From Acidobacteriota bacterium (GTDB lineage: Bacteria; Acidobacteriota; Terriglobia; Terriglobales; Acidobacteriaceae), in contig JABCZH010000006.1 of NCBI GenBank assembly GCA_013289795.1, positions 62,001 to 126,000 of the forward strand: a DNA stretch of 64,000 nt, in the 5' to 3' direction. The position numbers and the translations under genes were made by a program. This document shows positions 3,055-21,456 of this stretch, piece by piece (position 1 is the stretch's first letter; the number at the start of each line of letters is the position of its first letter). Under the pieces are notes generated by a model that saw only the letters and a program-made list of their open reading frames with translations, was not told the origin of the DNA and did no database searches.

Positions 3055-4164
3055 ATGAAACATGGCAATCACGACGGCAGCGGTATCGATCGCAAGCTTC
3101 ACAACCCGGTCGAAGACCGGCTGACCCCGCTGCAACCGCTCGATTTGACCAAAGTGCGATCGATTGATGGCCTGGTGCGCGCCATGGCCAAGACCGCGTT
3201 TACTGGCAGGCAAATGGGCGAAGCCGCTGACGTACTGGAAGCCATGGCCCGCGATGAAGAGTGTTTCGTCGTTATGACCCTGGCCGGCGCCATGACGGTT
3301 GCCAAGCAAGGACTCATCATCACGGAACTGATCGACCGCGGCATCGTGAATGCCATCGTTTCAACCGGCGCGCTGATGGCGCACGGTCTGGTGGAAGCCA
3401 CCGGCCGCGCTCACTTTCGTTACAACCCCGAAGTGAGCGATACCGAGCTCTACGAGCAGGGCTACAACCGGGTTTACGACACACTCGAACCGGAGACCAA
3501 CCTCGACGAAGTCGAAGAAGTCATGTCTGAAGTGTTGGAGGGTTGGGACCATGCCGACGTGATGTGCTCGTACAAGCTGAACCATGCCATCGGCGCATAT
3601 TTGGCGAAGCACGCCAAAGACCAGCGTGGCATTCTGAAGTCAGCTTATGAAAAAGGTGTTCCGGTTTTCGTTCCGGCTTTTACTGATTCCGAACTGGGCC
3701 TGGATGTGGCCTTGAACAATCGTCTGCGCGAATCGACCGGACGCCACAAAATCAGATTTGATCCCTTCGAGGACTTGGAGCACTTTGCCGCCACTCTCTT
3801 GCGGCAAACCCGCCTGGGAATCTTCACCATCGGAGGGGGCGTGCCACGCAACTGGTCGCAACAGTTCGGGCCATTCATTGAGCTGCGCCATCGCCGCATG
3901 GGTGAGAATGTTCCGCTGAAGCGTTATCACTATGGAGTGCGCATTTGCCCCGAGCCGGTGTACTGGGGAGGACTGTCGGGAAGCCCCTATAGCGAGGCCA
4001 TTTCATGGGGCAAGTTCGTGCCTCCTGCTGAAGGTGGGAAGTTCGGAGAAGTCTTTGTAGATGCCACGGTTGGGCTTCCGATCATTGTTGCCGCGGTGCT
4101 GGAACGGCTGGGCAAGGACAAGTCGGCGTCTAAGAAGAAAGAGAAGGCGGCGGCCCGGAAATAA
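3055..4164 (+). CDS. Deoxyhypusine-synthase-like protein, putative homospermidine or related polyamine synthase
   Basis: The 369-residue protein belongs to the deoxyhypusine synthase fold. In eukaryotes and archaea this enzyme transfers the aminobutyl group of spermidine to a lysine of eIF5A. Bacteria lack eIF5A, and some bacterial homologues are proposed to make homospermidine or other polyamines by transfer to a free amine. The NAD-binding core (TLAGAMTVAKQGLI, STGALMAHGL) is intact. The active-site lysine is retained as K320 in SEAISWGKF, equivalent to the EAVSWGKI lysine of human DHS. A GGGGAG Shine-Dalgarno-like tract (CTGGGGAGACG) sits about nine bases before the ATG. The gene is divergent from the putrescine-forming pair and convergent with arginine decarboxylase, which supports a polyamine role. 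The exact product is not known. Confidence 0.8.
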   Translation: MKHGNHDGSGIDRKLHNPVEDRLTPLQPLDLTKVRSIDGLVRAMAKTAFTGRQMGEAADVLEAMARDEECFVVMTLAGAMTVAKQGLIITELIDRGIVNAIVSTGALMAHGLVEATGRAHFRYNPEVSDTELYEQGYNRVYDTLEPETNLDEVEEVMSEVLEGWDHADVMCSYKLNHAIGAYLAKHAKDQRGILKSAYEKGVPVFVPAFTDSELGLDVALNNRLRESTGRHKIRFDPFEDLEHFAATLLRQTRLGIFTIGGGVPRNWSQQFGPFIELRHRRMGENVPLKRYHYGVRICPEPVYWGGLSGSPYSEAISWGKFVPPAEGGKFGEVFVDATVGLPIIVAAVLERLGKDKSASKKKEKAAARK

Positions 4165-19917: not shown

Positions 19918-20361
19918 TCCCTTATAACTTTGTCATTCCGAGCCGTCCGTAGCCCCGCAGGGGCGAGGACGCGCGAGAAATCTGCTTTTAACTCCAGCCC
20001 TCTAATTGCAGACGGGTGCCGGGTGCCCCGTTCCCTTCGACTTCATCTCAGGGCAGGCTTTGCCGTTCTTTGGCAAGGGGCGGGCGCACGACCACGACCG
20101 TGGCCTTCTTACGGATCTCAACGCGTGGGTTTGGCACTGCGTCGCGCGGTGCGGGAATTTACAGTATGGCGCTTTGATGCTCCGCCGTTGCTGCCCGAGG
20201 AATCCTGGGCGATGGCAAGAAGGCGTCCCAGCCGCGAGCCGGAAATACCCAGCCTCAGCGGCATCTGTGCGGTGGTCTTTAGCGGGAAACTGATTCGTAC
20301 CCTCTTTGTCATGGATGGACTCTGCTTGGATTATAGGCTTGCTGTCCAAACGACCCGCCCC
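19918..20361. other. Gene-free region with repeat-like sequence
   Basis: About 440 bases without a convincing gene; the two overlapping open frames (19930-20379 forward, 20002-20364 reverse) show no domain or codon character. Bases 19930-20000 contain a TCATTCCGAGC start and a GAGGACGCGCGAGAAATCTGC tail related in style to the TCATCCTGAGC elements. Around 20020-20100 there is a GGGTGCCGGGTGCCCC tract. Confidence 0.5.
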
Positions 20362-20593
20362 CACAATCTGTCATCGTGAGCGCAGTTGTCGTTCGCAACG
20401 CGAACGACAACGCAGTCGAAGGACCCCTTGCCTGCGTGCAGTGAGATGAGCTCAGCAAGGCATGCTCACGATGCTGTCGGGTTACCGGGGAGAACTCCCT
20501 GAAAACGCTCGTGCTGGGTTGAGAGCTGCAGGGGGTCCTTCGACTCCGTGGCCGCTTCGCTTCGCGAAACGGCCGCTCCGCTCAGGATGACAG
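20362..20593. repeat. TCATCCTGAGC-type element, copy A
   Basis: A 232-base element starting CACAATCTGTCATCGTGAGCG and ending CCGCTCAGGATGACAG, so its ends are imperfect inverted repeats of each other. Internal segments (GTTGTCGTTCGCAACG, ACGATGCTGTC, GTTACCGGGGA, CGCTCGTGCTGGGT, GGGGTCCTTCGACTCCGTGG) are shared with copy B at 21203. It carries no coding capacity for a transposase. Confidence 0.8.
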
Positions 20594-20677
20594 TTTGTTC
20601 TTAGCGGATCGGACTCGCTCAGATGACGCTCGTGTACAATTCTCGCGTTCTCATTTCAAACAGGCGAGGCAACTAGC

Positions 20678-21196
20678 TTGCGTATGCGACCCTCAATCTT
20701 GCTGCGAGCGGTGTTTCTGGTGATCCTCGCGGTGCCAACCGCGTATGCACAACAGCCGGTTCTTGAAGATCAACTGCTGAATGCGTTAACCGGCAAATGG
20801 GTGCTCAGCGGAACCATTCGCAAGACCAGCACGACGCACGATGTGGATATCCAATGGGTGCTGAATCATCAGTTCGTGCAGATTCACGAGGTCTCGCGGG
20901 AGCGGCTGGCGAGCGATCCGACCAAGCCCCAATATGAAGCCATTGTGATGATTGGTTGGGACGCGAACAAGCAGCAATACGTCGTTTACTGGACCGACAT
21001 TTACGGCGGCGGATTCTCCCTGCGAGGCTATGCCGAGAAGCTGCCTGCGTCGATCCCGATGGTGTTCAAAGCGGACGACGGGAACTTCTATACCACCTTC
21101 ACCTATGACGACAAAACCAAGAGCTGGCGCTGGGACATGGACAACGAAAAAGACGGCAAGCGACAGGAGTTTGCCCGGTTGACGATGACGCGGTAA
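20678..21196 (+). CDS. Secreted DUF1579-like protein
   Basis: A 172-residue exported protein (signal peptide to YAQQ near residue 25). The mature part, with LTGKWVLSGTIRKTS, YEAIVMIGWDANKQQYVVYWTD and GNFYTTFTYD, resembles the lipocalin-like beta-barrel of DUF1579. The function is not established. The start is the TTG at 20678 with GAGG eight bases upstream; ATG 20684 is the alternative. A TACAAT box at 20635-20640 may be its -10. The gene sits between the two 230-255 base repeat elements A and B in direct orientation, so it may be part of, or a target of, a mobilisable segment. Confidence 0.7.
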   Translation: MRMRPSILLRAVFLVILAVPTAYAQQPVLEDQLLNALTGKWVLSGTIRKTSTTHDVDIQWVLNHQFVQIHEVSRERLASDPTKPQYEAIVMIGWDANKQQYVVYWTDIYGGGFSLRGYAEKLPASIPMVFKADDGNFYTTFTYDDKTKSWRWDMDNEKDGKRQEFARLTMTR

Positions 21197-21202
21197 GAGT
21201 AA

Positions 21203-21456
21203 CACAATCTGTCATCCTGAGCGGAGTTGTCGTTCGCAACGCAAATGACAACGCAGTCGAAGAGCCTGCCCTGAGCGAAGCCGAAGGGACCCCATGCCTG
21301 TGCGTAGTGAGATGAACTCCGCGAGGCATTTTCACGATGCTGTCAAGTTACCGGGGATAACTCCCTGAAACGCTCGTGCTGGGTCAGCAGTGCAGGGGTC
21401 CTTCGACTCCGTGGCCGCTTCGCTTCGCGAAACGGCCACTCCGCTCAGGATGACAG
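21203..21456. repeat. TCATCCTGAGC-type element, copy B
   Basis: A 254-base direct repeat of copy A (20362), with the same boundaries CACAATCTGTCATCCTGAGCG and CCGCTCAGGATGACAG. It contains an extra segment near 21264-21290 with a second partial end (CCTGAGCGAAG). The two copies flank the DUF1579-like gene and are highly similar. Confidence 0.8.

Follow-up and report, generated by a model that had tools for sequence, protein, structure and literature searches.

The window, a stretch of 64,000 nucleotides from the genome of an Acidobacteriota bacterium, contains two direct repeats in the same orientation, element A (20362-20593) and element B (21203-21456), each of which has inverted ends. They bracket a host gene on the plus strand (20678-21196), an open reading frame of 172 amino acids with a signal-peptide-like start that lies 84 bases from A and 6 bases from B, as an earlier note on this DNA had described. 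The label "DUF1579-like" given to this gene in the same note found no support in Pfam, where no family was matched at E <= 1e-3. Homologues with 42–45% identity are present in three relatives, and the gene was found in 4 of 61 genomes including the source. No such repeat lies within 1.5 kb of the homologues in the three relatives, and neither the gene nor its GPx neighbour is found beside ubiD in any relative examined. Element B directly follows the stop codon of the bracketed gene and sits between convergent genes.

The two elements are 81% identical over their whole length, with blocks of 86%, 98% and 93% identity. Element A, including its extended ends (CCCCCACAATCT / AGTTTGT), spans 20358-20602 on the plus strand with a conserved core at 20370-20591. 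Its left end, GTCATCGTGAGCG (20370-20382, plus strand), is followed by a left variable hairpin, GTTGTCGTTCGC / GCGAACGACAAC (20385-20411, plus strand), whose 12-nt arms are 100% complementary and which covaries across copies. On the right side, the inner arm GGGGTCCTTCGACT (20532-20545, plus strand) pairs with AGTCGAAGGACCCC in the left half, and a right variable hairpin, GGCCGCTTCGC / GCGAAACGGCC (20550-20574, plus strand), precedes the right end GTCATCCTGAGCG on the minus strand (20579-20591; genome match C6:82579-82591). Element B, on the plus strand with a conserved core at 21211-21454, has the same layout: a genome-wide end search located GTCATCCTGAGCG at its left end (21211-21223, plus strand) and at its right end (21442-21454, minus strand), its left variable hairpin (21227-21251, plus strand) differs from that of A at two bases, the right inner arm GGGGTCCTTCGACT recurs as a direct repeat (21395-21408, plus strand), and the right variable hairpin lies at 21413-21437 (plus strand). 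When folded, the outer ends of each element pair with each other, the hairpins become side arms and GTCGAAGGACCCC pairs with GGGGTCCTTCGAC as the inner stem, resulting in a four-way cruciform with z-scores of -9.0 for A and -7.8 for B against dinucleotide shuffles.

Two further features reported in the earlier note are real and have to be read differently. The extra partial end inside B corresponds to a 24-base module, AGCCTGCCCTGAGCGAAGCCGAAG (21263-21286, plus strand). Since this module recurs at the equivalent position in the copies at C11:125382, C6:138399 and C11:95896, it represents a recurrent internal module and no one-off nested insertion; a relic of it, an inverted 13-nt copy of AGCCTGCCCTGAG with 100% identity, is present at 20047-20059 on the minus strand. 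The supposed diverged start at 19935 belongs to a related repeat directly after ubiD (19932-19985, plus strand), a separate single repeat of the GTCATTCCGAGC type with a GTCAT tag, a GCCCCGCAGGGGC hairpin and a GAGAAATCTGC tail, which is distinct from A and B and whose end, GTCATTCCGAGCG, has four exact copies elsewhere in the genome.

All good copies in the source genome follow one plan, namely YTGTCATCCTGAGCG, (A/G)AG, a variable hairpin, (C/G)AGTCGAAGGACCCC and an inner part; in full copies the whole half-plan is repeated in inverted form, and variants of it occur in other genomes. The variable hairpins change in sequence between copies while their pairing is kept. All 21 parsed middles in the source genome are distinct, and 18 of the 19 long ones exceed their own shuffled stem score (mean of 10.2 compared to 4.3). 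Among nine aligned hairpins from the source genome and genome G028, covariation reached 0.467, compared to 0.183 after shuffling (0 of 500 shuffles) and 0.12–0.18 with slid partners. Comparison of the copies places the conserved boundary at approximately YTGTCATCC, with a sharp transition at -3/-2. In four genomes the information content is full at the G and drops to near background within about 4 bases upstream, which indicates that the copies sit in unrelated flanks.

The repeat is abundant and dispersed. Within the window, TCATCCTGAGC occurs 8 times with at most one mismatch, compared to 1.5 expected occurrences, a number reached in none of 100 shuffles. The genome search suggested in the earlier note revealed a dispersed family, with 23 exact GTCATCCTGAGCG ends in the source genome and none of the reversed pattern, and BLAST against the same genome returned 28 partial or full matches to the element, with two further full-length copies. 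Exact ends are present in 42 of 61 genomes with up to 144 copies (142 in genome G032). Most genomes of the same GTDB family carry the exact end (0 to 144 copies), which is seldom found in the rest of the order and class. In a scan of named genomes for the end plus inner arm, the matches listed fell mainly in Acidobacteriota (Granulicella mallensis, Sulfotelmatobacter and many Terriglobia), with a few cases in Verrucomicrobia, Gemmatimonadetes and others among them; overall, this family of GTCAT-tagged palindromes is widespread in Terriglobia. Element size varies among genomes, from mostly hairpin-less forms of 77–79 bases and hairpin-bearing forms of 218–262 bases in G028 to about 111–163 bases in G034. 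Searches with Rfam over eight element loci gave one chance match and nothing relevant, and a literature search for the exact repeat sequences returned unrelated matches only.

Comparison among close relatives revealed that the family is mobile. Within one genus, in which some genomes are incomplete, the number of ends per genome is 137 (G034), 77, 39, 38, 12, 9, 4, 3 and 1. A syntenic block of 20 kb in G034 carries five pairs and two single exact ends; in six congeners the gene order of the same block is kept, the G034 elements are absent and one end was found in total. The congener spacers that match element-bearing spacers of G034 are mostly shorter. Based on the range of copy numbers within the genus and the absence from syntenic sites, the family spreads at a rate that depends on the lineage. 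Target-site duplications, which the earlier note had proposed to look for, were not seen at the outer ends of the A/B pair (20358 and 21456), nor by eye in the flanks alone of copies from the source genome, G028, G034 and G. mallensis. Dispersed copies with a sharp boundary and inverted ends, together with copy numbers that vary strongly among close relatives, confirm a real mobile-repeat family, in which A and B are non-autonomous, MITE-like inverted-repeat elements with no gene of their own.

Elements that carry a gene between the same ends also exist. Listing all outward-facing pairs of ends at a distance of 450–4500 bases over all fetched sequence gave seven pairs, none of which contained a transposase recognisable on inspection of the open reading frames. 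Four of the seven, each from a different MAG, are elements of 463–545 bases with the same ends and an open reading frame for a GIY-YIG protein. At loci L213, L207, L210 and L269, the GIY-YIG gene stands in place of the interior of a full element. The reading frames match PF01541 with E values of 1e-9 to 5e-15 and 38–60 bits (curated cut-off 22.6), and the proteins, about 95–110 amino acids long, retain the conserved Y, R, H, E and N positions of the catalytic domain; their nearest solved chains are UPF0213 proteins (1zg2, 1ywl). A profile search over all loci detected the protein in one further MAG, a frameshifted copy in the part of the G034 genome that was read, and an intact copy of 110 amino acids in the source genome (C12:74929-75261), which is the sole member of the clade in 1.59 Mb of this genome. 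This intact gene begins 136 bases past the first base of an exact left end; half an element serves as its leader, further elements follow it, and the two ends around it point in the same direction and form no inverted pair. Over 80 bases its leader is 77.5% identical to A, and over 64 bases the right end of A is 87.5% identical to the L213 element. Thus, the same ends enclose or abut a GIY-YIG gene, once in intact form in the source genome, in a sample of seven acidobacterial genes that were fetched via the repeat. The earlier note had proposed to look for a transposase with these ends; a gene with the same ends was found, encoding a GIY-YIG nuclease and no classical transposase. In the GIY-YIG element L269:163-663, a stretch of about 90 bases splits the right end; it contains an inverted repeat of its own (TTGTGACTTTTTTGA / TCAAAAAAGTCACAA) and may be another small element inserted there.

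The association extends to other phyla. Sixteen GIY-YIG loci on plasmid records were picked by protein similarity alone, and their flanks were inspected afterwards by an alignment score for inverted repeats within 300 bases, with 1360 windows from the same loci as controls. A score of at least 16 was obtained for 12 of the 16 loci, compared to a score of at least 15 in 0.8% of the control windows; the number of independent cases is lower than 12 of 16, since near relatives are included (two Shinella, two Sphingobium and two Sinorhizobium). Inverted palindromes lie on both sides of the gene in Azospirillum, Shinella, Sinorhizobium, Rhizobium and Neorhizobium as well as in Sphingobium, Novosphingobium, Aeromonas and Neisseria. 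Nearly all of them are visibly GTC-tagged, and they differ between hosts and match on the two sides of a gene. In Alpha-, Beta- and Gammaproteobacteria, GIY-YIG genes of this clade have on both sides palindromes that look like the CGTC-tagged REPs of the respective host. Flanking repeats are absent from the Photobacterium and Rhizobium tumorigenes loci (2 of 16), and the scores of the Spirosoma and Planktothrix loci (2 of 16), which have GTCAT repeats nearby, are not above those of their own controls. In Azospirillum lipoferum 4B, sufB and sufC are separated by a unit of REP pair, GIY-YIG gene (protein WP_014249537.1) and REP pair. The flanks are 95–96% identical in three congeners, which have a plain sufB-sufC spacer of about 90–130 bases with no REP or GIY-YIG gene, which indicates that the unit of A. 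lipoferum 4B was inserted or has been lost repeatedly. A base-exact insertion junction was not found at this site, where the spacer is too diverged for a target duplication to be read, and the search for filled and empty sites in Rhizobium CIAT894 and Shinella yielded no clean close pair. Plasmid p1 of Planktothrix agardhii has its GIY-YIG gene (L331, 7989-8273), with GTCATTCTGAG repeats, in a DISARM defence cluster, with the MmeI-type enzyme on one side and drmA on the other. Several PLSDB records of 2.2–4.9 Mb (CP090106.1, NZ_CP119140.1, NZ_CP104131.1, NZ_AP026896.1 and NZ_CP069303.1) look like misfiled chromosomes.

Few repeats are as common in bacterial chromosomes as REPs, and the enzyme of the GTAG superfamily, RAYT, is known. 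For the CGTC superfamily, which includes dRS3 of Neisseria, the REPs of S. meliloti and A. lipoferum and further rhizobial and sphingomonad repeats, a dedicated transposase was apparently missing according to the survey of Di Nocera et al. 2013 (PMC3733652), which left the question of its enzyme unanswered. The same survey lists CGTC repeats for five phyla, Acidobacteria not being among them (PMC3733652). Our acidobacterial repeat resembles the CGTC-tagged REPs in its GTC tag (CGTC or TGTC) ahead of a palindrome that begins with AT, and in its head-to-head pairs, intergenic location and host-specific sequences; CGTC-tagged REPs of Neisseria (dRS3), Sinorhizobium and Azospirillum are the kind seen here around GIY-YIG genes. 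In contrast to them, the acidobacterial copies add an inner variable hairpin with a stem of 0–14 bp and form elements of 77–262 bases. An unpaired end motif of the CGTC/TGTC/CCTC type is present, as TGTCATCC in the source genome (with T at -2 in 96%) and as CGTCATCC in Granulicella mallensis. The CGTC rule of a stem of 8–9 bp from the AT, a loop of 4–5 bases and a CCA-like tail applies in part to the short forms in G028 (GTC-ATCCT...AGGAT-C); the copies in the window end in AGGAC-CCC, and their loop contains an additional hairpin. As the stem and tail rules hold only in part, the acidobacterial repeat is no more than a candidate for full membership in the CGTC superfamily.

The arrangement also has parallels in other systems. 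Like REPIN/RAYT pairs, it consists of hairpin repeats in a short inverted pair, with copies that are non-autonomous and a small enzyme gene flanked by the repeats, and no target duplication was seen; the tag is GTCAT here and GTAG there, and the enzyme is a GIY-YIG protein (PF01541) instead of an HUH tyrosine transposase. TIRYT/TIRtrons of Acidobacteria share the phylum and a small gene within terminal inverted repeats that form a repeat family (PMC3733652), but their gene encodes a Y1 transposase, and Y1 genes are not bracketed by the end found here. Compared to a MITE of a DDE insertion sequence, the terminal inverted repeats are present and a cognate insertion sequence with the same ends was not found among the seven end pairs. 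The catalytic domain is shared with the small GIY-YIG nucleases of the COG2827/UPF0213 kind (1zg2, 1ywl) and with UvrC, SLX1 and I-TevI, whereas neither an intron nor an intein is present here. Our literature search, with most subscription journals lying outside it, returned no relevant report that joins GIY-YIG nucleases with REP or palindromic repeats.

Taken together, A and B are probably gene-less, REPIN-like mobile repeats of a GTCAT-tagged family with a GIY-YIG nuclease as partner, an analogue of the REPIN/RAYT system in which this nuclease would take the place of the HUH tyrosine transposase. The REP-associated GIY-YIG nuclease is the best candidate enzyme for CGTC-tagged REPs. The chances appear even that a clade of small GIY-YIG nucleases serves, in several phyla, as dedicated mobiliser of the CGTC-REP superfamily and of the related acidobacterial repeats. 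Such elements would form a class alongside REPIN/RAYT, in which A and B would be members without a gene and the hypervariable paired hairpins would be the structure recognised. The nuclease would recognise the tag and hairpin and cut either this structure, in extruded or single-stranded form, or the target; the element would then be copied elsewhere or duplicated locally by repair. Copies without a gene, such as A and B, could be served in trans, and the gene between them would be a bystander of local duplication. GIY-YIG enzymes include structure-specific nucleases (SLX1, UvrC) as well as a homing nuclease (I-TevI), and by analogy both kinds would fit such a mechanism. Several observations speak against this reading: no target duplication or insertion junction was found, four of the 16 plasmid loci lack flanking repeats or do not exceed their controls, the ends around the gene in the source genome form no inverted pair, and the copy read in element-rich G034 is frameshifted. 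Since the nuclease gene is regularly bracketed by host-specific repeats that match on its two sides, the question of the CGTC enzyme can be tested directly with a protein of about 95 residues. If our reading is correct, GIY-YIG nucleases would be one more of the few enzyme types known to spread repeats in bacteria.

The main rival explanation, which we consider unlikely, is that the GIY-YIG gene is a homing-type parasite that lands in REPs, which themselves spread by other means. Homing endonucleases do occur among GIY-YIG enzymes, and the gene was found inside one element (L213) as well as between two complete REP pairs (Azospirillum). REPs are known targets of insertion sequences (PMC1525189). 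A parasite does not account well for L213, L207, L210 and L269, where replacement of the full-element interior is what an autonomous parent would show, or for the Azospirillum relatives, in which neither the REPs nor the gene is present at the sufB-sufC site. A second rival is that A and B are ordinary REPINs or TIR elements moved by a RAYT or TIRYT (Y1, HUH) transposase, and the REPIN-like size and architecture, the absence of target duplications, six Y1_Tnp genes in the source genome and the Y1 genes with terminal repeats of Koribacter versatilis, one of which forms a repeated family (PMC3733652), would agree with this. We regard this already weakened explanation as improbable: the GTAG tag is absent, and none of 36 Y1 loci (6 + 30) in eleven genomes is bracketed by the end, with two having a single end at about 0.5 and 1.3 kb. 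The number of Y1 genes is also unrelated to that of end copies, as G034 (137 copies) and G019 (71) have no Y1 gene and G021, without copies, has five. A Y1/RAYT link was thus not found in the eleven genomes, and as two element-rich genomes lack a Y1 transposase, an alternative mover for the REPs is not apparent.

Selection for static RNA or DNA structures, such as terminators or mRNA-stabilising or gyrase-binding palindromes that spread by duplication alone, would agree with the strong folding of A and B, the location of B just behind a stop codon between convergent genes, and the local duplication that is common in the source genome. This explanation is very improbable to us, as the range of 1 to 137 copies within a genus and the copies missing at syntenic sites argue against a purely static role, the flanks beyond the boundary are unrelated, and the link with the GIY-YIG gene would be left unexplained; a secondary role of this kind may still exist. 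The earlier note had read A and B as arms of a composite transposon that brought the bracketed gene, and two copies of the same orientation around an accessory gene present in only 4 of the 61 genomes would suit this reading. It is not supported by our data and we give it hardly any credence, since a target duplication was not seen, homologues of the gene elsewhere lack such repeats nearby, and copies that lie next to each other tend to be most closely related also in places where they enclose no unrelated gene.

Instead of by composite transposition, the bracket formed by A and B most likely arose by local duplication, with the gene between them as a bystander. A and B have their closest copy in one another, and the same holds for most neighbouring copies in other clusters, so that local duplication accounts for the bracket: among 19 ends in the source genome with a neighbour in the same cluster, 17 have their nearest relative inside their own cluster. 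Several element clusters of this genome enclose no unrelated gene, and tandem blocks with periods of about 180–520 bases carry element copies along. A separate observation concerns locus L047 (C12:73500-77900), where a block of 346 bases (2305-2650) next to the element cluster has a second copy, 94% identical, at 3253-3598.
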